From positions 1 to 24,536 of IMG/VR virus record IMGVR_UViG_3300035701_000280: 24,536 bases of DNA; one strand, written 5' to 3'. Positions 250-21,243 of this stretch are shown in pieces; position 1 is the stretch's first letter; each line of letters begins with the position of its first letter. The notes beneath the pieces were generated by a model, which was given only the letters and a program-made list of their open reading frames with translations, was not told the DNA's origin and searched no databases. The position numbers were made by a program, and so were the translations under genes. This DNA is from a virus.

Positions 250-793
250 TGGCGCTCCTCGGATCGATTGCCTGCTCGTACTGTCTCCAATTCACGTCGA
301 GCTGCGATGCGGTCATTCGCTCTATGACATCGGCGAATCGGTGTTCGCGACGGTACGGCGCATCGCGATGATCGCCAGGTTCGCTGCCGTCGTTCGCTGC
401 CCTCGCCGCCCCGAACTTCATGTCGAACTCGGTGATGGTGGACTCATCGACCGCGTGATGCTTGCACAGCGCCATCTCGACCAGTTCGTGTATCGCGACG
501 AGGAAGCTATAGCGCCAGTCGGGAAGGTTGCTGATCCGAATGTGCCATGCGCCGTCCTCCGCCATCCACCAGTCGCCTACGGTCGGGTAGCGTTGCTCCT
601 CAGCCGGAATCGACTGGATGATGACCGCGGGGAATCCGAGCGTGGTGGCCATCTCCGCCGTCACCATCGCATTCGCCGGCAGCTCCGGTACTGCCGGGTA
701 CGGTCTCGCTTTCGCTGCCGCGTCCGCCTTGCCTTGGCGTACTGCGCCTGCGCTGTCCTGACGCACTACGCCCGTTCGCGACTTCGCTTTCAT
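230..793 (-). CDS. Conserved phage protein with HELxE putative metal-binding motif
   Basis: 187 aa. The ATG overlaps the stop of the ATP-grasp gene (ATGA), so the two are translationally coupled. The first 45 residues are basic, Ala-rich and probably disordered. The core has a GDWWMAEDGAWHIRI strand-rich stretch, then a helix with AIHELVEMALCKHHAVDE. A Thr/Asp/Phe segment (TEFDMKF) and a C-terminal PYRREH....A..IER helix ending in W..Y follow. The His-Glu-x-x-Glu arrangement with later His residues recalls a metal site but is not a canonical HExxH zinc protease motif. I recognise the overall pattern as a recurrent hypothetical protein of tailed phages, but no function is established as far as I know. 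It lies at the downstream end of the head cassette. Confidence 0.75.
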   Translation of the reverse strand: MKAKSRTGVVRQDSAGAVRQGKADAAAKARPYPAVPELPANAMVTAEMATTLGFPAVIIQSIPAEEQRYPTVGDWWMAEDGAWHIRISNLPDWRYSFLVAIHELVEMALCKHHAVDESTITEFDMKFGAARAANDGSEPGDHRDAPYRREHRFADVIERMTASQLDVNWRQYEQAIDPRSANAGKQR

Positions 794-2103
794 AGCAACC
801 TCATCGATTTGAGCGCCGAGTATCGCCTCAGCGGTGCACCACGATAATTGTCGCGGTGCAGGTCGGTACGGAACGCCATATCGGGGAAGCTGATCGCCTC
901 ATTGAACAGCAGCTTATTCAGGCATCCTTCCGCCGCCTCCTCAATCGTGTAATCGTGATCGGTGAAGATTCCGATCTCGTTGCTGTAGCCAGCGAGGAGC
1001 AGGTCGGCGCCGGACTTGTAGCCCTCGAACGCGTAGAACTGCGGCGCTGCACGTGGGTTGATGTGAAGCGGGAGCCCGGCCCGCGGATGATCAATAAAGA
1101 GGGTAATGGATGCGCCGAACCCGGCACGGAAGCGGGACGGGATGGCAGCTATCTTGTCCGACTCGCCCTCCATCCAATCGACCATGGTGTCACCGAACCT
1201 GCCCAGCGCGCAAGTCAGGAAAAGATTGGGATGCGCGTTATAGCCGAATCGATTGCAGACCTCCAGGAACCAGGTCGCGTTGTCGCCCACGATCACGTTA
1301 ACATCGGCGAATCCGCTGTAGTTGCGCTGCCAGTAGAACGGGAACATGCGGCCGATCGTGCGCAGGACGAGTGGGGAGTCGAGCGGAACCACGAATGCGA
1401 TGTCACCCGCGCACCCGCTCATTTCACCGAGATCGTGATCCCACTTGCGCTTGTTCTCAAGATTGCAGACCGCCATGAACGGCGCGCCATCGTGGAACCA
1501 GACCTCCACATTGACCTCGACGCCCGGCTTGCGCTCCTGGAGGACGTAGCCACTCGCCATCTCGGGCTGATTCCGCAGATAGCACAGCAGCTCGTGATTC
1601 GCGTCCTCCACCTCCTCGCGGAACGGCACGAACGTCGAGAAGGCGGCATCGCTGGCATTCGGCTTGAGCACGTAGGCAGTCGTGGGGTGCTGCTCGACGA
1701 AGGCGACGCCGGCATCTACCCGGTCGAATGCGAACGTGGGAGGAGAGGGCAGTCCCATGCGGGCAGCGAGATCGACGGTAAAGGCGCGGTCATTCTCCAT
1801 CCGCTCACTCAACACGGAAGTGCCGAACACGTGCTGGCCAGCGCCGCGCAACCAATCGGCGACGGCTGACTGAATATTGCGCTCGAACAGCCAGTAGGTA
1901 GCGGGACCGAGCCGGGACTTGAGCGCGACCTCAAGCGGCTCACAATCGATCAGCCCACGACCGACGAGGTCGAACAGATCCAGCCTGTCCTCCTTTGGTC
2001 CCGGCGCCTTGGCGAACACAACCTGCTCTCCCTCCTCCTGGAGCTTCTTCGTCCAGCCAAGCCCGGAAGTATCCTGCGTCACCACGACAAAGAGTCGCGC
2101 CAC
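790..2103 (-). CDS. ATP-grasp enzyme resembling PurD (GAR synthetase-like)
   Basis: 437 aa, close to the usual PurD length. The start is a GTG directly after the TAA of the head gene, with a GGTGGTG stretch just upstream. A Rossmann-like N-domain begins RLFVVVTQDTSGLGW. The ATP-grasp part follows: a helix with DRAFTVDLAARMGLPSPP, the ATP-binding lysine in AYVLKPN (K147), then YVLQERKPGVEVNVEVW (E190). Next is NLENKRKWDHDLGEMSG, which lines up with the DHKR..DGD.GPNTGGMG block of PurD. Last is WFLEVCNRFGYNAHPN (E281, N284), matching the E.N.RFGDPE metal/ATP site but with FGD changed to FGY. The family ligates a carboxylate to an amine using ATP. The PurD-like changes and its place between head genes argue against a plain purine-synthesis role. 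Peptide or small-molecule ligation on a virion component is only inference. Confidence 0.82.
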   Translation of the reverse strand: MARLFVVVTQDTSGLGWTKKLQEEGEQVVFAKAPGPKEDRLDLFDLVGRGLIDCEPLEVALKSRLGPATYWLFERNIQSAVADWLRGAGQHVFGTSVLSERMENDRAFTVDLAARMGLPSPPTFAFDRVDAGVAFVEQHPTTAYVLKPNASDAAFSTFVPFREEVEDANHELLCYLRNQPEMASGYVLQERKPGVEVNVEVWFHDGAPFMAVCNLENKRKWDHDLGEMSGCAGDIAFVVPLDSPLVLRTIGRMFPFYWQRNYSGFADVNVIVGDNATWFLEVCNRFGYNAHPNLFLTCALGRFGDTMVDWMEGESDKIAAIPSRFRAGFGASITLFIDHPRAGLPLHINPRAAPQFYAFEGYKSGADLLLAGYSNEIGIFTDHDYTIEEAAEGCLNKLLFNEAISFPDMAFRTDLHRDNYRGAPLRRYSALKSMRLL

Positions 2104-6811: not shown

Positions 6812-7132
6812 TTACGCCGCCTTCCCGCGCCGACGAATCTCGCGCACCGTGCGACGGCCGCGAATATTGAAACCAGGCTGGGCGCGAATGTAGGCACGCA
6901 GCTCGTCAAGCGAGACGGAGGCGGCGTCGGCGATGGACGCGCCGACCCAGAACGAAGCGCCCTTGATTCCCCGCAGCACGCGGCCGACATGCTGCGGGGA
7001 GAGACCGACTCGGCGACTGATCGAGCGATAGTTGCCCGGACCGAGGATGCGCGAAAGCTGCGAAACCGGACGGCAGCGCACCGGCTTGATATTGGAAACG
7101 TCGTGAGCGAGAGCGCGATTCTTGTGTTCCAT
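6812..7132 (-). CDS. HTH (XRE/Cro-like) DNA-binding protein
   Basis: 106 aa from the ATG at 7132, preceded by AAGG at nine bases. An earlier in-frame ATG at 7207 is rejected because it overlaps the -10 of a strong promoter. Residues about 33-75 form a helix-turn-helix: YRSISRRVGLSPQHVGRVLRG, followed by a helix with IADAASVSLDELRAYI, as in XRE-type repressors. The C-terminus is Arg-rich (RGRRTVREIRRRGKAA). It is the first gene downstream of the 7206-7235 promoter and lies just before terS, with an 89-bp gap. It may regulate phage transcription. Whether it binds the CCGG dyads or the promoter spacers in this window is inference. Confidence 0.75.
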   Translation of the reverse strand: MEHKNRALAHDVSNIKPVRCRPVSQLSRILGPGNYRSISRRVGLSPQHVGRVLRGIKGASFWVGASIADAASVSLDELRAYIRAQPGFNIRGRRTVREIRRRGKAA

Positions 7133-7205
7133 GGTCTTCGACCTTGTCTCGTATCCTGATAAGGGAGAGGAGGATCTATCCCCTCCCGCCTCCGTGAACG
7201 ACTTC

Positions 7206-7235
7206 ATTGTAGCACAGGCTAACGGTGTCTGTCAA
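7206..7235 (-). promoter_or_regulatory. Promoter, TTGACA-N18-TACAAT, leftward
   Basis: Read on the minus strand, the -35 TTGACA (7235-7230) and the -10 TACAAT (7211-7206) are separated by 18 bp, and TGC precedes the -10 (extended -10). Transcription would start near 7199, leaving a leader of about 67 nt before the HTH gene. This site probably drives the HTH gene and then the terminase/head genes. The spacer lacks the ACC...GTGG pattern seen in its relatives at 10441, 11117 and 15068. Confidence 0.75.
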
Positions 7236-11373: not shown

Positions 11374-11763
11374 TTACAGCTTCCATACCGAGCCGTCGTA
11401 GTCGGTCGTCGGCGTGCCGTTCACGATGGTCATCAGTTTGGCCGCGCTCGCCGGGATCTCGCTCGCGCTGATGATGTCCTGCGCGATGCGCCGCATCCAG
11501 CCGTGGAAGCGGGCGTCGTGGCCCTGCGCGAAATGGCGATGAGGCTTGCAGGTCGAGCCGCAGCCACAGGCGCACGAGCCGCCATTCAGCTCGGTACTGT
11601 CGCTGCGGCGGATGACCGCGAGCTGGGCGCGGCGATAGGCGCGCTTGCTCCCGTCCGATTCGACCAGGTACCAGCCGCGCGAGTAGCGCTTCACGATGCC
11701 GGTCTTGCGCCCGGCGCGGACCTTGGCCCCATTCGCGATGGTAGCGGTGCCGGTGTTCGTCAT
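11374..11763 (-). CDS. SH3-like plus Cys/GHDAR-motif protein
   Basis: 129 aa from the ATG at 11763 with AAGGAGA upstream. Residues about 10-50 look like a KOW/SH3-type barrel (GAKVRAGRKTGIVKRYSRGW then YLVESDGSKRAYRRAQL). The middle holds CACGCGSTCKP, then HFAQGHDARFHGWMRRIAQ. The end is TPTTDYDGSVWKL. The same order of SH3-like strand region, C.CGCG..T, F..GHDARF.GW and PTTDY.G recurs in the rightward protein at 15108, so the two are paralogues. CGCG...GHDAR modules occur in small phage and actinobacterial proteins, and the four Cys and His suggest a metal knuckle. No function is established to my knowledge. Confidence 0.75.
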   Translation of the reverse strand: MTNTGTATIANGAKVRAGRKTGIVKRYSRGWYLVESDGSKRAYRRAQLAVIRRSDSTELNGGSCACGCGSTCKPHRHFAQGHDARFHGWMRRIAQDIISASEIPASAAKLMTIVNGTPTTDYDGSVWKL

Positions 11764-11881: not shown

Positions 11882-12078
11882 CAAAAGTCCCGATCGTACT
11901 CGTAGGCGAAGCGAGCCGCGCGCTCGAATGCAAGCTCGCGCCTGTGCGCTGCATCGTGCCGGCGCTGCGATCTTGCCGCCTTCGCTTGTCGGCAGTCGTG
12001 GCACAGGCCGGTCGCATGGGCGCGGGCGTAATTGCCACAACGGGAGCAGATCATGACGGCAGTAGCGGTAGCGCTCAT
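11881..12078 (-). CDS. Small zinc-ribbon protein
   Basis: 65 aa from the ATG at 12078, which overlaps the previous stop (ATGA). MICSRCGNYARAHATGLCHD followed by C (C-x2-C...C-x2-C) is a compact zinc-ribbon unit near the N-terminus. A strongly charged helix follows with many Arg, Ala and His (RSQRRHDAAHRRELAFERAA), ending in FAYEYDRDF. The frame can be extended upstream to 12270, but that portion lies over the DnaJ-like gene and has shadow composition. Unknown function; possibly binds nucleic acid. Confidence 0.68.
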   Translation of the reverse strand: MSATATAVMICSRCGNYARAHATGLCHDCRQAKAARSQRRHDAAHRRELAFERAARFAYEYDRDF

Positions 12079-12542
12079 TTTGTCACCTCGCTCTCGGTGA
12101 TCGTCGCGCCCTTCAGTTTGCGCGCCAGCTCCACGACGCGGAGCCAGTCGGCGCCGGCCGGCATCCGAATGACCGTCTGATCGGATCGCACGCACCATCC
12201 TGTGTCGATCACCGGCGGCCTGTGCTTGAGCGTGAACGTGATCCAGGGAATGCCAGTAGGATCGCTGCACCCGCCCGGCTCGATGGCGGTGACACGGACA
12301 CGAGAGCTGCTCACGCGAATCAGGTCGCCTACCTTCACATCGGCGACCGCGATCGTGAAGTTGGCGACGATGAACTCCTCGATCTTGGCGCGGGCGGAAG
12401 CGCCCTTACGCGTGATGCTCTTCCCCGAGCCCGCGCACTTGAAGCAGGTCGTGCCGTAGCGCTGGCAGTAGGAATAATGGCCGCTCCCGCCGCAACGGGA
12501 ACAGGAGCCGATCTCGTAGGTAATGGTGGTTTTGGTAGCCAT
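12075..12542 (-). CDS. DnaJ-type Cys-rich domain protein
   Basis: 155 aa; ATG 4 nt after the preceding stop. Residues 14-41 contain CSRCGGSGHYSYC and CFKCAGSGK, the C-x2-C-x-G-S-G repeats of a DnaJ central zinc finger (one pair of units instead of two). Then comes a region rich in beta strands with VKVGDLIRVSSSRVRVTAIE and WITFTLKHRPPVID, and a basic helical end. There is no J-domain, so it is not a chaperone DnaJ; it is a stand-alone zinc domain fused to an unknown beta domain. It is the second gene of the leftward arm. Confidence 0.75.
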   Translation of the reverse strand: MATKTTITYEIGSCSRCGGSGHYSYCQRYGTTCFKCAGSGKSITRKGASARAKIEEFIVANFTIAVADVKVGDLIRVSSSRVRVTAIEPGGCSDPTGIPWITFTLKHRPPVIDTGWCVRSDQTVIRMPAGADWLRVVELARKLKGATITESEVTK

Positions 12543-12546
12543 GGCG

Positions 12547-12762
12547 CTATTCCCAGCTTCCGTCGCGGTTGCGGCTCAGGCCAGACGAGCGGCAGATATC
12601 GTAGCGGGCGCGCCCGGCCGAATTGCGAGCGTTGCGACGGCGCAGGATGGCCCGCAGCTCGACGCAGCGGGAGTCGAGCTGTCCGGGCGGGAGAAGCGAT
12701 ACCCGCGCCCGCAGCTCGCGCCTGATTTCCTCTGTGCTCCGTCCGACCATGTTGTCCGCCAT
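12547..12762 (-). CDS. Hypothetical basic protein, first leftward gene
   Basis: 71 aa from the ATG at 12762, with AGGAGGTAGCGAG immediately upstream; an earlier ATG at 12804 lacks a ribosome site. The sequence is Arg-rich and mostly helical (VGRSTEEIRRELRARVSLLP, then RCVELRAILRRRNARN). It ends SGLSRNRDGSWE. It is the first gene leftward of the divergent control region, and its leader is identical over 13 bases to that of the first rightward gene at 13263. Function unknown; its position makes a regulator plausible, but there is no clear HTH. Confidence 0.65.
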   Translation of the reverse strand: MADNMVGRSTEEIRRELRARVSLLPPGQLDSRCVELRAILRRRNARNSAGRARYDICRSSGLSRNRDGSWE

Positions 12763-12805
12763 CTCGCTACCTCCTATCCGGTAAATATGCACAGACCGTG
12801 CCACG

Positions 12806-12847
12806 ACGAGCAGATTCTACCGGGCAACGAGCAGATTCTGCCGGGTG
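12806..12847. repeat. Tandem 21-bp direct repeat (two units)
   Basis: Two head-to-tail units, 12806-12826 and 12827-12847, differ at three positions. Each contains GAGCAGATTCT(A/G)CCGGG. They lie between the first leftward gene and the first CCGG palindrome. On the minus strand the left unit presents GGTAGAAT, like the -10 of the promoter family, but no -35 match is at the right distance. They could be iterated protein sites. Confidence 0.8.
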
Positions 12848-12850
12848 CGA

Positions 12851-12871
12851 CAACCACAACCGGTTGGGGTA
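12851..12871 (+). repeat. Repeat A1: 21-bp element with 18-bp near-palindrome
   Basis: Identical over 21 bp to the copy at 13182-13202. Its core, ACCACAACCGGTTGGGGT at 12853-12870, is a palindrome broken at a single symmetric pair, and CAACCGGTTG is a perfect dyad. A related inverted copy lies at 13038-13057. A repressor or initiator dimer site is the natural reading. Confidence 0.75.
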
Positions 12872-12970
12872 GGCAAAAGCGAAACCTACCGCCGAGCCGA
12901 GCAGAAACCTGTTCTCGAAACCGTCTCCACTAGGCTAAGGCGAAGGTGGCGATACTGTTGAATGGGGTCG

Positions 12971-12986
12971 TGTCGGCCGGTCAACA
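12971..12986. repeat. Operator-like dyad B1 (16 bp)
   Basis: TGTCGGCCGGTCAACA. With B2 and B3 it fits TGTYRRCCRGYCAACA, an imperfect palindrome centred on CCGG. It is followed directly by the left arm of an 11-bp inverted repeat. Confidence 0.6.
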
Positions 12987-13037
12987 GCGAAAATGTAGCA
13001 CCGCGCTACGGATCGGGGTAGTATTGCCTATCCGACA

Positions 13038-13057
13038 CCACTACCGGTTGTAGTTGG
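13038..13057 (-). repeat. Repeat A3: diverged inverted copy
   Basis: Read on the minus strand this begins with a Trp-codon-free run of CCAACTACAACCGGTAGTGG, resembling the A1/A2 core in opposite orientation. CTAC/GTAG arms flank the CCGG centre. Confidence 0.5.
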
Positions 13058-13077
13058 AGAGGTAATCGAGATGGCGA

Positions 13078-13093
13078 TGTCGGCCAGCCAACA
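13078..13093. repeat. Operator-like dyad B2 (16 bp)
   Basis: TGTCGGCCAGCCAACA, two mismatches from B1. Its last bases overlap the right arm of the 11-bp inverted repeat at 13091-13101. Confidence 0.6.
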
Positions 13094-13109
13094 TTTTCGC
13101 TATCCGCGG

Positions 13110-13125
13110 TGTCAACCGGTCAACA
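13110..13125. repeat. Operator-like dyad B3 (16 bp)
   Basis: TGTCAACCGGTCAACA, the most symmetrical of the three B sites. It includes ACCGGT and shares AACCGG with repeats A1/A2. B2 and B3 are 32 bp apart, about three helical turns, on the same face of the DNA. Confidence 0.6.
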
Positions 13126-13181
13126 TGGCGGGAGCGGGTCCGGGAGGCGCCAGACCGGGCTCGTAGCGGTGGACGGGCGCG

Positions 13182-13202
13182 CAACCACAACCGGTTGGGG
13201 TA
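13182..13202 (+). repeat. Repeat A2: second copy of the 21-bp CCGG element
   Basis: Exact second copy of the 12851-12871 element, about 60 bp before the first rightward gene and about 30-50 bp upstream of its ribosome site region. Together the two copies bracket the central dyads. Confidence 0.75.
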
Positions 13203-13262
13203 ATGACAGCGACAAAATTGGTGGCACGAAGGATGCATTCTGAATCGGCAGGAGGTAGCGAG

Positions 13263-13733
13263 ATGAAGCGCACGAAATCGACACTCAAACTCGGCACGAT
13301 CAGCGAAGGCACGCTCCGCAACGAGGACCTGATCCCGGCGTTCCTGGACGCGGCGGAAGGGCTACGGCTCACGCGCGAGGAGCGCGCGACGGTCCGCAAC
13401 ATCCGGCGCGAGAGCGAGCAGGAAGGCTACTACGAAGGCGCCGACACCTATCGCGATGCGAGCGCCGATGTGGACACGCTCAGCGACATCCTCAATGCGC
13501 ACTGCCCCGATCTGACCTACTTCGGCCCGCTCGAAGGCGACGGCGCCTGCTTCGGGTGCTGGACCGACAACGACGCAATCGAGAGCATGAAGCACGACGG
13601 CGATATCTACCAGTGTGCCGAGCTCAGCAACGACATCCGCGCCCGCTACCAGCTCGTCGTGACCGACCACGGCAACGAGACGCTGTATCGTCGCGCCGGG
13701 AATCGCTGGATCGAGGTGTGGTCGGTAGTGTAA
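13263..13733 (+). CDS. Hypothetical protein, first rightward gene
   Basis: 156 aa from the ATG at 13263, with AGGAGGTAGCGAG upstream; 20 codons of open frame before it have no ribosome site. The sequence is acidic. It includes FLDAAEGLRLTREERATVRN, ANVDTL-like spacing, and a segment PDLTYFGPLEGDGACFGCW then TDNDAIESM. The YFG...GDGA..G.W pattern is one I associate with uncharacterised phage and plasmid proteins, but no function is known to me. The C-terminus is strand-rich (YQLVVTDHGNETLYRRAGNR). As first gene of the arm it may be an early host-interaction or regulatory protein. Confidence 0.75.
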   Translation: MKRTKSTLKLGTISEGTLRNEDLIPAFLDAAEGLRLTREERATVRNIRRESEQEGYYEGADTYRDASADVDTLSDILNAHCPDLTYFGPLEGDGACFGCWTDNDAIESMKHDGDIYQCAELSNDIRARYQLVVTDHGNETLYRRAGNRWIEVWSVV

Positions 13734-13745
13734 TCGCGTCTTGCG

Positions 13746-13774
13746 TCGGCGCTGCGGCCAGTGCGCAGCGCCGA
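13746..13774 (+). other. Strong hairpin between cistrons
   Basis: TCGGCGCTGCG and CGCAGCGCCGA form a perfect 11-bp stem around a 7-nt loop, between the 156-aa and 90-aa genes and just before the latter's ribosome site. No T-run follows, so it is not a standard intrinsic terminator. It may stabilise or process the message, or pause RNA polymerase. Confidence 0.7.
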
Positions 13775-13789
13775 GCGGAGGATACGACA

Positions 13790-14062
13790 ATGGCAATCAG
13801 GATGACGATCGACAAGCTGGCGGAGATGGCGAACGACGCGCTCCGGGCGCGAATCGCCAGGATGCGCACCAACACGGTACGGGAATTGCTCATCGACAAC
13901 GACAGGGAGCAGTTCATGGACCTGGACCACAACGAGGCGGTCGATCTGATCTGCGAGTGGAGCGTGAACGGCAGGAAGGGGCGCAAGGACCAGACCCGCA
14001 TCGAGCTCCTCGCCGATCTCGACACAGAGATCGGTTACCGGCAGGAGGAGTCACGAACATGA
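13790..14062 (+). CDS. Hypothetical small charged protein
   Basis: 90 aa from the ATG at 13790 with GGAGGATACGACA upstream. It is helical and highly charged (TIDKLAEMANDALRARIARM, then RELLIDNDREQFMDLDHNEA). The segment DLICEWSVNGRKGRKDQTRI looks like a turn between helices. No known family recognised. The stop overlaps the next ATG (ATGA), coupling it to the DUF2786 protein. Confidence 0.7.
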   Translation: MAIRMTIDKLAEMANDALRARIARMRTNTVRELLIDNDREQFMDLDHNEAVDLICEWSVNGRKGRKDQTRIELLADLDTEIGYRQEESRT

Positions 14063-15039
14063 CCGATACCGCACTCATCAACAAGCTCATCAAGGTACTC
14101 GCTCTCACCAGTTCTCCCAACGAGGGCGAGGCAGCTGCAGCGAGCGCGATGCTGGAGAAGCTGCTCATCCAGCACAACCTCGAGATCGCCGATCTGGAAA
14201 AGAAGGGCGCGAGCGCTCCCGCCATCACCGAGGGCGCCCACGATCTCGGCAAGGCCGCATTCAGGTGGAAGCTGAATCTCGCCGACGCCATCGCGAGCCA
14301 CTACTACTGCTACAGCGCGACGGACCACGCTACCAAAAAGGTCGCATTCATCGGACGCCCGGACAACGTCGAGGCGCTCAGGATGCTGTATGGCTGGCTA
14401 ATCGACCAGATCGGGCGCATCGCGAGCAGCGAACGTCGCAACCATGAGACGGATATGGGCGAGCGCATCGATCCGCTCAGGTGGCAGGTCGGGTTCGGGC
14501 TCGGCGCGGTCGAGCGGCTGACGGACAGGCTGGCCGAACTCAAGACGGCGAGGGAGCAGACGATGGCGCGGGACGAGAACGGCGACGTGATCGCGCTCGC
14601 GATTCATCACCTCGCCGAGGTGAGCGACTACCTGGAGCGCACGCAAGGATTCCGCGTGGACGGGCGCGACACCGAATTCCAGCGGCGCTACCATCGCGAG
14701 CACGAGGAGCGCGAGGCGCGATTGGCGCAGCTCAAGCAGACCGACATCGAGGCATACTACCGCGAGCGGCCGTGGGAGCGCCCGCTGACGGCGGAACAAC
14801 AGGCGGCGCAGGACAAGGAGAACGAACGCGGGAGGAAGCGGCAGGAGCGCAACGAGCGGCGGCGCAAGGGACGCGGGACCCGCTACCGTGAGGAGAGCGA
14901 GAGCGACAGAGCGAAGCGAGTCCAGAGCCGGCACGCGCGCAAGGCCGGGTTCGCTGCGGCGGACCGGATCAACCTGGAGCCATTCCTGGCGGGAGACACG
15001 GACGAGAGCAAGCGCCGCGCAATCCGCGGCAGGAAGTAG
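14059..15039 (+). CDS. DUF2786 domain protein
   Basis: 326 aa from the ATG at 14059 (AGGAGGAGTCACGAAC upstream; ATGA overlap). Residues 6-45 match the DUF2786 pattern: LINKLIKVLALTSSPNEGEA, then AAASAMLEKLLIQHNLEIAD. A second domain follows (FRWKLNLADAIASHYYCYSA, AFIGRPDNVEALRMLYGWLI), as is common behind DUF2786. From about residue 215 the protein is a long, very charged helix/coil rich in Arg, Glu and Lys. It ends in a basic tail (DESKRRAIRGRK) that could bind nucleic acid. The family is widespread in phages and bacteria without a firm function. Confidence 0.85.
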   Translation: MTDTALINKLIKVLALTSSPNEGEAAAASAMLEKLLIQHNLEIADLEKKGASAPAITEGAHDLGKAAFRWKLNLADAIASHYYCYSATDHATKKVAFIGRPDNVEALRMLYGWLIDQIGRIASSERRNHETDMGERIDPLRWQVGFGLGAVERLTDRLAELKTAREQTMARDENGDVIALAIHHLAEVSDYLERTQGFRVDGRDTEFQRRYHREHEEREARLAQLKQTDIEAYYRERPWERPLTAEQQAAQDKENERGRKRQERNERRRKGRGTRYREESESDRAKRVQSRHARKAGFAAADRINLEPFLAGDTDESKRRAIRGRK

Positions 15040-16497: not shown

Positions 16498-18186
16498 ATG
16501 CCGCCTACGCCATCCGAAGTCGGCCTACCGTGCAGGTTCACTGCCTACCGCCGCGGCCAATTCGAGGCAGCGCTGGCGGCAGCCACATCCGAGCGCCGAT
16601 TCGTCATGCTATCATCGCCGACTGGCAGCGGCAAGAGCGTCATCTACATGAGCGCAGCCCGCTTGAACGATGCGCGCACTCTAATCTTGACCAGCACCAA
16701 GGGACTGCAGGCGCAGCTCCTTGCCGATTTCGACACAATAGGGCTCGCCGACGTGCGAGGGCAGAACAATTATCGCTGCACCGCGGCAGACAAGGACGGA
16801 CCGCTAAGCGATTTCGGGAATGCGACCGGGGCACCGACTATGTGTGATGGCGCGCCGTGCCACATCGGGGTCCATTGCCCATACAAGAAGGACGCGGAGG
16901 GCAATCGCCCCGCGGAGGGCTGCTCCTACGAGGACGCGGTGGAGCAGGCAAGGACGGCGCAATTCGTCGTGACCAATTACGCCTACTGGATGACGACGGG
17001 AAAATTCGCCGATCCCGGCGCACTCGGCGAGTTCGATCTGCTGGTACTCGATGAGGCCCACGCAGCGCCGGATGAGCTCGCCGATTTTTGCGCGGTCCGC
17101 GTCGATCGGGACGAGCTCAAGCTGATCGGAATGGCGTTACCGCCGCTCGACGAGGGTACGGATGCGTGGGCGGGCTGGGCGGTGACGGCGCTAAACGCAT
17201 GTAGGGCGAAATATGTAGAAGCGCGGCGCGAGTTCGGCGCGATCGGAGCGGACAGGAGGAAGGCGGCGCGAATGCTGCGCAGGCTGACCGACCTCGGGCG
17301 CGGGCTAAAGGAGCTCGCATCGGCGCACAGATGGCGGCGGGCCGATCCGGGTAATCCCGATGTGTGGATGCCGGGAGCGCAGGTCGATTGGGTAGCCGAG
17401 GCGGTACCGACCGGCGCGCTGTTCTCACCGGTATGGGCGCACGCCTATGCCGAGGAATATCTGTTTCGCAAGATCCCGAGAGTAGTCATGGTGAGCGCAG
17501 TCCTGCAGCGAGCCACGGCGCGGTATCTGGGGATCGACGACGGCGTGCTCGACTACCGCGAATTCCCATCGACGTTCGATCCGAAGCGGCGCCCGCTCAT
17601 CTACGTGAGAACGACGAATGTGGATCGCCACATGAATGAGGGGCAGACGCGAATCTGGCTCAACCGGATCGACGCGATTGTAGCGGGCCGGCTCGACAGG
17701 AAGGGCATCATCCACACTCGCAGCTACGAGCGGGCGCGGATCATCACGGCAAGATCGAAGCATCGCGACATCATGATCACGCACACGAGCCGGACGACGC
17801 GAGATGCAGTAGCGCGATTCAGACAGGCGAAGGCGCCGTGCGTGATCGTGTCGCCCTCGCTTGAAGAGGGCTACGATTTTCCCGACGACCAGTGCAGGTA
17901 CCAGATCATCGCGAAGGTCCCGTTCGTCGATTCGCGCTCGGCCATCATGCGAGCGCGAGCGAAGAGCGACAAGGGCTACCTCAACTACCTTACTGTCCTA
18001 TCGCTCATCCAGCAAACCGGGAGAGGAATGCGGGCGGAAAGCGATATGTGCGAGAATTTCATCGTTGACGATCACATTGCCTGGTTCTGGCATGCAGCGA
18101 AGGCGATGTTTCCTCGCTGGTTCAAGGCGGCGTGGCGCAGCGAGGCGACGGTGCCACCAGCGATGGCGATGAGGAGAACGAGATGA
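16498..18186 (+). CDS. DinG/XPD-like Fe-S superfamily 2 helicase
   Basis: 562 aa, ATG 9 nt after the previous stop with a weak ribosome site. Walker A is SSPTGSGKS (K46) and the DEAH box is LLVLDEAHA (185-188). Between them lie C94, C116, C121, C127 and C142 (MCDGAPCHIGVHCPYK, EGCSYEDA), the place and spacing class of the 4Fe-4S domain of XPD/DinG/RAD3. The C-terminal half has SAVLQRAT, a VSPSLEEGYDFPDD motif V-like block, and LIQQTGRGMR (motif VI). These enzymes unwind DNA 5'-3', often on R-loops, D-loops or replication forks. It is shorter than host DinG and is co-transcribed with small phage genes, so it is likely a phage replication or recombination helicase. Confidence 0.88.
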   Translation: MPPTPSEVGLPCRFTAYRRGQFEAALAAATSERRFVMLSSPTGSGKSVIYMSAARLNDARTLILTSTKGLQAQLLADFDTIGLADVRGQNNYRCTAADKDGPLSDFGNATGAPTMCDGAPCHIGVHCPYKKDAEGNRPAEGCSYEDAVEQARTAQFVVTNYAYWMTTGKFADPGALGEFDLLVLDEAHAAPDELADFCAVRVDRDELKLIGMALPPLDEGTDAWAGWAVTALNACRAKYVEARREFGAIGADRRKAARMLRRLTDLGRGLKELASAHRWRRADPGNPDVWMPGAQVDWVAEAVPTGALFSPVWAHAYAEEYLFRKIPRVVMVSAVLQRATARYLGIDDGVLDYREFPSTFDPKRRPLIYVRTTNVDRHMNEGQTRIWLNRIDAIVAGRLDRKGIIHTRSYERARIITARSKHRDIMITHTSRTTRDAVARFRQAKAPCVIVSPSLEEGYDFPDDQCRYQIIAKVPFVDSRSAIMRARAKSDKGYLNYLTVLSLIQQTGRGMRAESDMCENFIVDDHIAWFWHAAKAMFPRWFKAAWRSEATVPPAMAMRRTR

Positions 18187-19351: not shown

Positions 19352-19732
19352 ATGGACACCAAAGGCAGGCAGGGCTTCGCGTCGATGTCGGTAGAGAAGC
19401 GGCGGGAGATCGCCGGCAAGGGCGGACGGGCCGTTCACCAGAAGGGCACGAGCCACGAGTGGACATCCGAGGAGGCAAAGGTAGCGGGCAAGAAGGGCGG
19501 GACGGCGTCAGCGGGCACGGGCGCAACTCTAGGGTACGACGCCGGGCGCAACTCTAGGGTACGACGATGCCCCCCGTCGTGCGAGCTGCGCGCCAACGTT
19601 GCCCACTTGACACGACTCATCCACCTGTGGTATGCTCCGTCGTACGGGCGCTGCGCGTCTGTCGGATTGTTCCTCATGCGCTCCATCTCACACGAACGGC
19701 TAAATCCAACGCGCGGCGCCGTGCGTGCGTAA
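19352..19732 (+). CDS. KGG-repeat (stress-protein-like) protein, C-terminus probably altered
   Basis: 126 aa from the ATG at 19352 with GGAGGACGAAG upstream. Residues 5-50 match the KGG stress-induced family: GFASMSVEKRREIAGKGGRA, then HEWTSEEAKVAGKKGG, with KGG at 23-25 and 48-50. From about residue 52 the sequence changes to a Cys/Arg/Leu-rich tail with no similarity to the family and runs over the 19607-19636 promoter. A 24-bp perfect repeat (19518-19566) lies exactly where this change starts. Removing one 25-bp unit would end the protein at a TGA at 19608-19610. So the present tail may be a product of a recent duplication. The KGG family has no firm molecular function. Confidence 0.7.
   Translation: MDTKGRQGFASMSVEKRREIAGKGGRAVHQKGTSHEWTSEEAKVAGKKGGTASAGTGATLGYDAGRNSRVRRCPPSCELRANVAHLTRLIHLWYAPSYGRCASVGLFLMRSISHERLNPTRGAVRA
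19518..19566. repeat. 24-bp perfect direct repeat, 25-bp period, inside the KGG gene
   Basis: Copies at 19518-19541 and 19543-19566 are identical, each holding GGGCGCAACTCTAGGGTACG. A 25-bp step is not a multiple of three, so it shifts the reading frame. The upstream operator pair has the same 25-bp step. Confidence 0.85.
19607..19636 (+). promoter_or_regulatory. Promoter, TTGACA-N18-TGG-TATGCT type, rightward
   Basis: TTGACA (19607-19612), 18-bp spacer ending CCACCTGTGG, and TATGCT (19631-19636) with TGG before it. It matches the other family members in -35, spacer length and extended -10. A leader of about 110 nt would precede the GTG at 19755; nothing else is seen in it. Confidence 0.78.
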
Positions 19733-19754
19733 ACCTGAACAAGGAGACACAACC

Positions 19755-20606
19755 GTGGCAATCAAGAGCAGACCGACATCGGCGGTGCAGGAGCCTCCAG
19801 CGGCCGTTGCCAGCATGAATCCCGACAACATGACGAGCGGACTCAAGGACGACTTCGATGGCGAGGTGCTGAAGGCGCGACTCATTCCGTGGGACTACGA
19901 CGGCAAGATCGACCATCACATCCTCGCCGTCGCGCTCACCATCAAGCCGGACGATGAAAAGGAGCCGTTCGTGCAGCCCTACTCGTGCGGCGAGCTCGAC
20001 AACTTCGTACCGTCCATGGATGGGCGAGTAAGCGTCGATCTGGAGAATGGCGAGGGCGAGGCGCTCGAGGGCATCTACGCTCTCAAGGTCGGCAAGAAGG
20101 AGCAGCTCAACAACAGTACCAACTGGGCGCATTTCATCGGCGCGCTGCTCGACGCCGGATTCGACAAGGGCAAGCTGGCAGCGGCGGTCACGTTCGTCGA
20201 AGGCGTGTACGGCCATTGGAATCGCATCCCGCAGAAGAAACGCAGCGGGATCGTGGTCCAGCCGGTCGAAGGCGGCAGGACGAGAACGAGTGACATCCTC
20301 GTGATCACGGAGCTCAAGGAGAAGGCGGCAGGAGCGAAGGCGGCCAAGAGCGCGAAGGCGGCGCCAGCGGTAGCGGTACCGACGGCAGGCGACCTCGACT
20401 CGCGGCTCGAAGCGGTCGTAGCGGAGGCAGTGAAGAAGGCGGGCGACGACGGATTAGCTAAGGCGAAGCTCGCTGGCATCGCGATCAAGGCGTTCACCGG
20501 TCCCGAGAAGGGCAAGGCGGTCAAGCGCGTCAGCGAGGCCGAATTCCTCGAAGGCAGCGACCAGTGGGCGTTCGACGGCGACAGCGGGACGCTGATCGCG
20601 GTGTAG
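19755..20606 (+). CDS. Possible ssDNA-binding-type phage protein
   Basis: 283 aa from the GTG at 19755 with AAGGAGACACAACC upstream; an ATG ten codons earlier has no ribosome site. Residues about 25-180 form a beta-rich domain (LKDDFDGEVLKARLIPWDYD, HHILAVALTIKPDDEKEPFV, NSTNWAHFIGALLDAGFDKG, TFVEGVYGHWNRIPQKKRSG). A Lys/Ala-rich linker follows (AKAAKSAKAAPAVAV), then a C-terminal helical domain (LAKAKLAGIAIKAFTGPEKG, EFLEGSDQWAFDGDSGTLIA), winged-helix-like in feel. Phage proteins of this shape sit beside recombination ATPases and nucleases and may coat single strands. This assignment comes mostly from neighbourhood and fold impression, not from a diagnostic motif. Confidence 0.6.
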   Translation: MAIKSRPTSAVQEPPAAVASMNPDNMTSGLKDDFDGEVLKARLIPWDYDGKIDHHILAVALTIKPDDEKEPFVQPYSCGELDNFVPSMDGRVSVDLENGEGEALEGIYALKVGKKEQLNNSTNWAHFIGALLDAGFDKGKLAAAVTFVEGVYGHWNRIPQKKRSGIVVQPVEGGRTRTSDILVITELKEKAAGAKAAKSAKAAPAVAVPTAGDLDSRLEAVVAEAVKKAGDDGLAKAKLAGIAIKAFTGPEKGKAVKRVSEAEFLEGSDQWAFDGDSGTLIAV

Positions 20607-20634: not shown

Positions 20635-21243
20635 ATGGCGCCGAGACTCATCGCAGCCGGTATACCCGATCTCCTGCCGATGGAGCGCGGCGGCGAGCCG
20701 GGTTGCCACATCTCGGCCATCATTCGCTCGCTCTGCCTCAGGCTCGGCCATTTCGAGGATGGCGGCGAAATCGACGAGAAGCAGCAGACCCGGATGGAAT
20801 TGGGCTGTGCGTTCGAGGATGCGGTAGCGAAAGCACTCGCGGCTCGCTGGGCGAAGGCTTACCCGGATCGCTACGCGCAGCCGGGTGAGATGGAGAAGGA
20901 CGGCCTGATTGGGACCATGGACTTACTGGACGTGATCGATTGGGCCGCGGTTGAGATCAAGCTGACCTGGATGTCGAGCCGGCACGAGATCGAATCGGTG
21001 AAGTTCTGGCGTTATTGGGCCCAACTCAAGGCGTACTGCTACATGGCCGAAACGAGAATTGGCCGCCTCCACATCGGCCACATCAACGGCAACTACCGCG
21101 ACGACCGCGGACCGAATTATAATGTGTGGGAGGATGAGTTCAGCAAGCAGGCACTGGCTGAGAATTGGCGTATGCTCATTACTCACGCAGAGGTCATGCG
21201 AACGGGCAAGGTGGGAGCGAGGCTACGTGCTAAACACCGATAG
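20635..21243 (+). CDS. PD-(D/E)XK exonuclease (RecB/Cas4-like)
   Basis: 202 aa from the ATG at 20635, with AGGGTGAGCGCAA before it. Motifs in order: MELGCAFEDAVAKALAARW with E61, LIGTMDLLDV with D96, then VEIKLT with E107 and K109. YWAQLKAYCYMAE gives the Q130...Y134 pair typical of RecB-family nucleases. The catalytic set looks complete. These enzymes degrade or process DNA ends, and in phages they pair with annealing or Sak-type proteins. No Fe-S Cys cluster like that of Cas4 is seen. The last residues overlap the methyltransferase start by 17 bp. Confidence 0.85.
   Translation: MAPRLIAAGIPDLLPMERGGEPGCHISAIIRSLCLRLGHFEDGGEIDEKQQTRMELGCAFEDAVAKALAARWAKAYPDRYAQPGEMEKDGLIGTMDLLDVIDWAAVEIKLTWMSSRHEIESVKFWRYWAQLKAYCYMAETRIGRLHIGHINGNYRDDRGPNYNVWEDEFSKQALAENWRMLITHAEVMRTGKVGARLRAKHR

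Follow-up and report, generated by a model that had tools for sequence, protein, structure and literature searches.

We believe that positions 12763-13262 of the IMG/VR virus record IMGVR_UViG_3300035701_000280 probably form the central control region between the divergent arms of a tailed phage, in which each of the two gene arms would be read from a sigma-54-type promoter gated by an activator; this is a single judgment on both points, made from sequence. "The window" means the whole 24,536-base record, which is probably a fragment. The reading is carried by two leaders that face outwards from the region, each with the -24/-12 letters of this promoter class at the correct spacing directly ahead of a ribosome-binding site, and it is considered together with the dyads between them and with clusters of sigma-54 sites in other viruses.

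Results

Gene arms

The region is precisely the interval separating two divergent start codons (Table 1). In the ORF list, the main genes to its left run leftward (UvrD-type helicase, small and large terminase, portal, Mu-F-like head protein and an ATP-grasp-like protein), and those to its right run rightward (DUF2786 protein, DEAD-box helicase, DNA methyltransferase, cold-shock-domain protein and Sak4-like recombinase). The products of both genes flanking the gap lack an HTH or repressor match in Pfam and PHROGs, and an integrase match is absent among the 30 window ORFs scanned against Pfam and/or PHROGs. The best 15 of 1970 matches to the terminase are 34-37% identical and come from Rhizobium, Paracoccus, Shewanella and Roseobacter phages as well as uncultured ones; at the DNA level, no close relative of window positions 12000-14500 was found among 50,697 phage records.

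Several weaker matches may be mentioned. The second gene of the left arm (12075-12542, minus strand) weakly matches the DnaJ-type CXXCXGXG and Anti-TRAP zinc-binding domains; the ATP-grasp-like protein (790-2103, minus strand), which adjoins the head genes, has a weak GARS_A match below the cut-off; and for the small terminase a single weak hit to a transposase profile was obtained. Near the terminase genes, at 6812-7207 (minus strand) and 5.5 kb from the gap, lies the gene of a weak HTH protein (HTH_31, below the cut-off), a candidate for binding the A or B dyads described below.

Paired leaders and their promoters

The first-pass annotation overlooked an inverted pair of leaders, 45 nt long with 71% identity (12760-12804 and 13221-13265); the blocks that the two keep in common are GTGGCACG, TGCAT and the ribosome-binding site. 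Each arm's leader reads GTGGCACG-N5-TGCAT and then an identical AGGAGGTAGCGAG-ATG, and the distance from the -24/-12 element to the ribosome-binding site is the same in both arms. The 5 nt between GTGGCACG and TGCAT are entirely different in the two leaders, and upstream of the -24 box they share scattered letters only. The 16-nt AGGAGGTAGCGAGATG is found in the window at the two leaders only.

According to PMC12316311, a sigma-54 promoter reads TGGCAC-N5-7-TTGCT, the boxes being TGGCAC and TGC. Each leader contains both boxes, and their GG and GC are spaced by ten bases; the first T of TTGCW at -12 is absent in both (GTGCA and ATGCA). The fuller -24/-12 consensus of this class is YTGGCACGRNNNTTGCW, and the two leader sites rank best of all the sigma-54 sites scored in the window. 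Zero-mismatch matches to TGGCACGRNNNNTGCW number two in the window, one per leader, against an average of 0.015 in shuffles, and two or more occurred in 1 of 2000 window shuffles; TGGCACG-Nk-TGCW is found twice at k=5 and once (k=3) across all other k from 0 to 9. Since the window holds no excess of sigma-54 sites at two mismatches (8 found, 8.1 expected), it is these two leader sites that carry the claim. The letters, spacing, placement and clustering can be read off directly, and by them each arm begins with a near-consensus -24/-12 element of the sigma-54 class. Transcription is predicted to start at about 12777 (left) and 13248 (right), which would leave 15-nt leaders with little beyond the ribosome-binding site.

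The earlier remark that no TTGACA-type promoter fits here agrees with our scan of 12500-13500, which gave 0 sites. No IHF-like site without mismatch was found, and the single 1-mismatch match in the region is at chance level.

Dyads and repeats between the arms

The repeats of the region are real and non-random. The two exact copies of a 21-bp element that had been reported, CAACCACAACCGGTTGGGGTA, lie at 12851-12871 and 13182-13202, and the 18-bp near-palindrome within it (the A dyad) is complementary at 8 of 9 positions. Dinucleotide shuffling of the region produced at least two dyads of this quality in 1 of 1000 trials, and in 500 shuffles no exact repeat exceeded 13 nt, whereas the longest one observed measures 21 nt. 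The remaining elements of the first description were also recovered: the diverged inverted copy of the 18-bp dyad, the three 16-bp near-palindromes (B1 to B3, each with 6 of 8 pairs), the 32 bp spacing of B2 and B3, the 11-bp inverted repeat whose arms touch B1 and B2 (read in the sequence), and the tandem repeat (19 nt, 95% identical, period 21). We read from the sequence that the second tandem copy holds a perfect 11-bp dyad, GCAGATTCTGC, and that the first copy holds this dyad with a mismatch.

The 16-bp dyads have no further occurrence in the window at up to 3 mismatches; the 16-bp consensus alone, at 3 mismatches, is modestly above chance (6 matches, a number reached by 5 of 100 shuffles). 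The strength of the evidence for these dyads is their clustering.

Table 1. Positions, strands and placement of the features in and beside the divergent region
Feature	Position	Strand	Remark
First gene of left arm, 71 aa	12547..12762	-	ATG at 12762 behind AGGAGGTAGCGAG; no PHROG/Pfam match
Left ribosome-binding site and start codon, AGGAGGTAGCGAGATG	12760..12775	-	16 nt identical to right leader
Left sigma-54-type promoter, TGGCACG-N5-TGCAT	12787..12803	-	12/13 consensus letters, GG-N10-GC spacing
Two tandem copies, ACGAGCAGATTCT(A/G)CCGGG	12806..12845	+	period 21; about -38 and -59 of left start
A1 dyad, ACCACAACCGGTTGGGGT	12853..12870	+	about -84 of predicted left start
B1 dyad, TGTCGGCCGGTCAACA (TGT-N10-ACA)	12971..12986	+	about -201 of predicted left start
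11-bp inverted repeat, left arm, AGCGAAAATGT	12986..12996	+	touches B1
Terminator-like hairpin with T-rich tail, weak	12995..13009	-	scan: 1 found, 0.8 expected
A2 dyad, ACCACTACCGGTTGTAGT, diverged copy	13037..13054	+	repeat search
B2 dyad, TGTCGGCCAGCCAACA	13078..13093	+	about -162 of predicted right start
11-bp inverted repeat, right arm, ACATTTTCGCT	13091..13101	+	touches B2
B3 dyad, TGTCAACCGGTCAACA	13110..13125	+	32 bp from B2; about -130 of predicted right start
A3 dyad, identical to A1	13184..13201	+	about -55 of predicted right start
Right sigma-54-type promoter, TGGCACG-N5-TGCAT	13222..13238	+	12/13 consensus letters, GG-N10-GC spacing
Right ribosome-binding site and start codon, AGGAGGTAGCGAGATG	13250..13265	+	16 nt identical to left leader
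First gene of right arm, 156 aa	13263..13733	+	partial match to PHROG 29605, function unknown

A candidate enhancer and the search for an activator

B1, B2 and B3 all read TGT-N10-ACA, which occurs three times in the 24.5-kb window, each time in the gap. PMC2820453 gives the same format for the NifA site, which as a rule lies 100 bp or more ahead of the start. All three copies in the window lie at least 100 bp upstream of the predicted starts and so at a distance of the NifA type. The refined NifA site, TGT-N4-T-N5-ACA, has a central T, which is absent from the B dyads; for NtrC, paired activator sites three helical turns apart are usual. Because of the NifA-site format, the distance and the NtrC-like pairing, we regard the B dyads as a candidate enhancer and do not claim them as NifA's own site.

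The activator domain PF00158 was found neither in 22 records including the window nor in 49 records with facing sigma-54 sites, many of both sets being fragments; a host activator must therefore be assumed.

We rejected TGT-N10-ACA as a general companion of viral sigma-54 clusters: its ratio is 1.30, against 1.16-1.71 for six control motifs, and its palindromic versions near clusters give 1.77 and 2.14, against 1.03-4.28 for controls, with small counts. TGTCAA-N4-TTGAC(A/G)-like dyads, the format of which resembles B, lie beside sigma-54 sites at L188:4250, L188:4290 and L185 (about 11675-11725).

Facing sigma-54 sites in other viruses

In two viral loci (L024 and L030), two sigma-54 sites face each other as TGGCACG-N4-TTGCA-(2-3 nt)-TGCAA-N4-CGTGCCA, with small variations. 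Such a facing palindrome was found in at least 120 stretches of viral contigs (scan gap 0-10; 119 loci analysed) and in 12 stretches of bacteria and archaea (257 billion bases, 84,980 genomes; gap 3-7); the scans differ in gap, and the narrower range covers 102 of 105 viral palindromes.

Spacing provides the strongest single control, and only the sigma-54 spacing is used. Outside the palindromes, we counted 143 single TGGCAYR-N4-TTGCW sites within 800 nt and 70 beyond that distance; TGGCAYR-Nk-TTGCW with any other k from 0 to 9 gave at most 2 in either distance class. When each sequence context is entered a single time, the k=4 sites are 117 near and 65 far, and the other k still give at most 2. 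Single k=4 sites are present in 85 of the 119 loci. The positions left free by the search pattern also follow the sigma-54 consensus: among 290 half-sites of 149 distinct palindromes, Y stands before TGG in 221, R after the -24 box in 213 and A/T after TTGC in 252. Spacer pairing by position is 17, 24, 38 and 31 for the 105 palindromes of the 80 viral loci listed, and all four positions pair in just one palindrome; the 4-nt spacers being unpaired, the symmetry resides in the boxes and not in a hairpin.

The bacterial set is small, yet not empty. Its 12 stretches hold 13 palindromes, five of them with fully pairing spacers (plain hairpins) and one pairing at 3/4, while seven palindromes in six stretches resemble the viral kind in spacer pairing; if A/T is required after both TTGC, 3 of 11 bacterial genomes still match. 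A 4.3-kb contig of a Verrucomicrobiia MAG (L268) carries two viral-like facing palindromes and is possibly a phage contig.

Gene context gives a weak indication, the ORF calls being crude: 52 of 107 facing palindromes lie inside some ORF and 9 at an edge, and the 46 between ORFs comprise 21 divergent, 8 convergent and 17 tandem cases. The cluster in L152 is flanked by thymidylate synthase on one side and by terminase and portal on the other. BLAST from four array loci gave no cultured phage with sigma-54 clusters, and the isolates Slicky01 (whole) and MQM1 (43 of 63 kb) have zero sigma-54 sites.

Some arrangements deserve a separate mention. Facing-site palindromes of 34-35 bp with non-complementary spacers are seen at L024:2686-2864, L030:2309-2404 and L143:12539-12706; the four in L024 are spaced at 42-51 bp, and their inner gap alternates between 2 and 3 nt. 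L148, L152, L161, L168, L174, L179 and L183, which are different viral contigs, hold three or four facing palindromes in an array, in most cases with a spacing of 46-47 bp.

Helicase relatives and the spread of the A dyads

The window's helicase (16498-18186), used as the query, led to 22 viral loci; L143, which entered through the palindrome scan, was later shown to belong to a record that also encodes the helicase (41%), and identity to the window's helicase is 41-44% in the records of L024, L030 and L143. Among the 28 loci L004-L031, A-like dyads at up to 4 mismatches are found in L024, L030 and once in L010, with no others; in L024 and L030 they adjoin sigma-54 sites. The cluster of L143 has an A-like dyad at 3 mismatches, the sole one in the 199 loci of two motif scans. 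Conservation of the repeats in relatives is seen for the A dyad in some of them; no B dyads were seen in the control regions of L024, L030 and L143 that were examined. A homologue of the right-arm gene is present in L024 (33% over 93 aa, E 2e-10).

The pattern TGGCAYRNNNNNTGCW matches 10 times in the record of L024, 5 in that of L030, 8 in that of L143 and 2 in the window; in the first three records the matches are confined to one stretch of 0.4-0.5 kb each. It is present in 7 of 32 records searched, the three besides these four having one match each, and the reversed TGGCAYRNNNNNTGCW used as a control gave one match across all 32.

The helicase tree includes the window, the record of L143 and 19 of the 22 loci, three short loci having been left out. 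The window pairs with L010 (support 100/100), and L024, L030 and L143 fall in a separate clade alongside loci without sigma-54 sites; the sites, therefore, do not follow one branch. The label "with sigma-54 sites" requires four changes on the tree, against a mean of 3.8 for shuffled labels. The L010 record shares 6 of 22 window proteins tested, at 26-54% identity: portal, Mu-F protein, helicase, the proteins at 19725-20606 and 20635-21243, and recombinase; the comparison does not validly cover the methyltransferase.

L010, the closest helicase relative, has no sigma-54 site within 1 mismatch, its best being one with 2 mismatches. It does carry a pair of A-like dyads with a spacing of 32 bp, ACCACAGCATGTAGTGGT and, recognised by eye, ACCACTGCATGTAGGGGT. 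At L010:2946-3030, also read by eye, the diverged A-like dyads precede a TTGACG-N18-TCTAAT-like stretch, which is possibly the same operator with a sigma-70 promoter. In L272 and L273, near-copies here, two A dyads stand 44 bp apart without a sigma-54 site. With L010, L024, L030, L143, L272 and L273, six loci are known to have A-like dyads. Because L272/L273 have them in the absence of sigma-54 sites, as L010 does with diverged ones, A is not tied to sigma-54; it would be an operator of several phages that is independent of this factor.

We tried A as a host regulon motif and rejected it: it occurs in 2 of 385 and 3 of 288 genomes of two bacterial groups, against 5 and 7 for a reversed control. 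When we scanned for A dyads with a sigma-54 site behind them, 8 stretches came up; L112 and L114-L118, in AT-rich coding DNA, were judged to be chance matches, and the L024 and L030 contigs remain.

Among the right-arm-gene relatives L120-L137, 17 of the 18 loci have no sigma-54 site within 1 mismatch, the exception, L133, being the L024 contig. A seed-based search of the relatives L004-L007 gave no comparable upstream repeats, with a few short ones in L004; single 12/13 sigma-54 sites occur at 642 in L005 and in L006 and at 9953 in L007, kilobases from the gene.

Further dyad families are seen in the control regions of L030 (2071-2657) and L143 (12364-12513): CCAC-N3-GTGG-like units, of which L030 has seven copies, and GGAACT-N3-AGTTCC-like units in both. 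At L024:2934-3093, between the palindromes and the A dyads, there are three copies of CGTTGGTTAAAGCTGACCA(G/A) with a TTGGT-N8-ACCA(A/G) dyad.

Discussion

Proposed mechanism

On promoters of this class, polymerase carrying sigma-54 rests in closed complexes until an upstream-bound activator ATPase acts on it. A regulated switch needing an activator had been among the first suggestions for this DNA, and it fits, because both arms carry sigma-54-type promoters and this class needs an activator ATPase. What follows on binding, on activation, on which activator acts and on what A, B and the tandem repeat do is what we infer. Host RNA polymerase with sigma-54 would sit on both promoters as closed complexes, unable to start alone; an activator ATPase of the enhancer-binding type would attach to some of the dyads and loop over to open these complexes. 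The host probably supplies it, this fragment having yielded none. For the right arm the most likely activator sites would be the B pair, at about -130 and -162, and for the left arm B1, at about -200. We presume that the A dyads and the 21-bp tandem repeat, which are nearer to the promoters, are sites of a second regulator tuning or shutting the same promoters. Both arms would thus be gated by one host signal, with one or two activators at the dyads.

Comparison with known systems

The glnA-type NtrC enhancer likewise consists of a dyad pair spaced by about three helical turns, which lies 100-160 bp ahead of its sigma-54 promoter; however, the dyads of the window differ from the NtrC site, and their context is that of a phage. 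Lambda-type operator regions also place several dyad operators between divergent phage arms, but the window has no adjacent repressor match and sigma-54 elements instead of a sigma-70 promoter, none of which was found. As described in PMC2820453, nif-type divergent regions (for example nifH-pnfA of Pseudomonas stutzeri A1501; NifA with sigma-54) resemble the window in the -24/-12 promoter, the divergent genes and TGT-N10-ACA more than 100 bp upstream. The window, in contrast, belongs to a phage and not to a nitrogen-fixation island, has no activator gene found in the 24.5-kb record, adds the A dyads and the 21-bp tandem repeat, and lacks the first T in both -12 boxes.

Alternative explanations

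Several dyad operators between divergent arms are a classic layout, and it is tempting to propose a switch of the lysis/lysogeny type, with a phage HTH repressor on the dyads, sigma-70-type promoters, and leaders that are simply a duplicated translation leader. The weak HTH protein at 6812-7207 could serve in it, as could a phage-borne binder of A, which is conceivable because A dyads are uncommon in the bacteria sampled; the dyads of L010 ahead of a sigma-70-like stretch are of the expected kind. We nevertheless consider it unlikely: the scan of 12500-13500 has no sigma-70 match, the flanking genes have no repressor match, the 30 scanned ORFs include no integrase, and a plain duplication of a leader leaves unexplained why the -24/-12 letters are kept and the spacer between them differs.

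A phage-specific polymerase was another early suggestion, and two near-identical leaders without a sigma-70 match could indeed be promoters of a phage-encoded RNA polymerase or of some other phage-specific sigma factor, the gene for which might be missing from what is probably a fragment. Such an origin of the leaders seems very improbable to us, considering that no polymerase or sigma match is present among the 30 ORFs scanned (Pfam and/or PHROGs), that PF04552 is missing from the 22 records searched, that the leader has just two copies in 24.5 kb, and that its letters and spacing are those of a known sigma class of the host.

The proposal of a replication origin, with the dyads as iterons bound by an initiator, draws on the 21-bp units repeated directly and in tandem, on the change of AT and GC skew near 12.5-13 kb, and on the slightly AT-richer composition (G+C 0.586 in the region, 0.63 in the window). 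It found no support and merits very little credence: the repeat units are few and dissimilar, the 30 scanned ORFs of this fragment include no initiator match, the skew change coincides with, and is expected from, the switch of coding strand, and the outer elements have the placement of promoters, each with a ribosome-binding site just behind it.

Another idea is that the sigma-54 sites are a trap or roadblock holding polymerase in inactive closed complexes and not meant for transcription, as arrays of facing sites in relatives may be. In its favour, relatives have up to 10 sigma-54 sites in one region, and their facing sites are so close that, by geometry, both could hardly be occupied by polymerase. 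Just as little credence is due to it, since the window has one site per arm in the correct orientation and at the correct distance to the ribosome-binding site.

Novelty and meaning

Returning to activator-gated sigma-54 promoters, the clusters of such sites, often as facing pairs, may be a widespread undescribed control element of phages, of which the window would be a member with the pair resolved into separate divergent promoters and with dyad operators of its own; we see the chances of this as evenly balanced. Such an element could gate both arms through the host activator or hold sigma-54 polymerase. If the proposal is true, some phages delegate their main on/off decision to the activator-dependent sigma-54 system of the host, and infection is tied to nitrogen, stress or surface signals. 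The facing-site pattern, strictly spaced and seldom met in bacteria (12 stretches among 84,980 genomes), would then provide a sequence signature for such phages.

The facing-site pattern is the more novel part, compared with the window's own promoters. No paper on sigma-54 promoters of phages was found, judged by titles and the beginnings of abstracts in a search that most subscription journals lie outside; this silence is a weak sign of novelty. The nearest related study, PMC9879122, is said to concern genes of the Gifsy-1 prophage that a host sigma-54 operon requires. As for the facing pairs, they would be the sigma-54 counterpart of bidirectional promoters: in E. coli (PMC12825309), the symmetry of bidirectional sigma-70 promoters allows polymerase to bind in two orientations, as the facing pairs of the relatives would. 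Those promoters, however, depend on sigma-70, and the sigma-54 sites of the window are separated and do not face each other; sigma54 and RpoN are not mentioned in the main text of that paper.

A viral scan for a sigma-54 site with a ribosome-binding site and ATG yielded 80 stretches, which we set aside as evidence because tens are estimated to arise by chance. Two or three such starts with a ribosome-binding site per contig were noted in L033/L075 (one 166-kb contig), L099 and L110, which are possible phage sigma-54 regulons.
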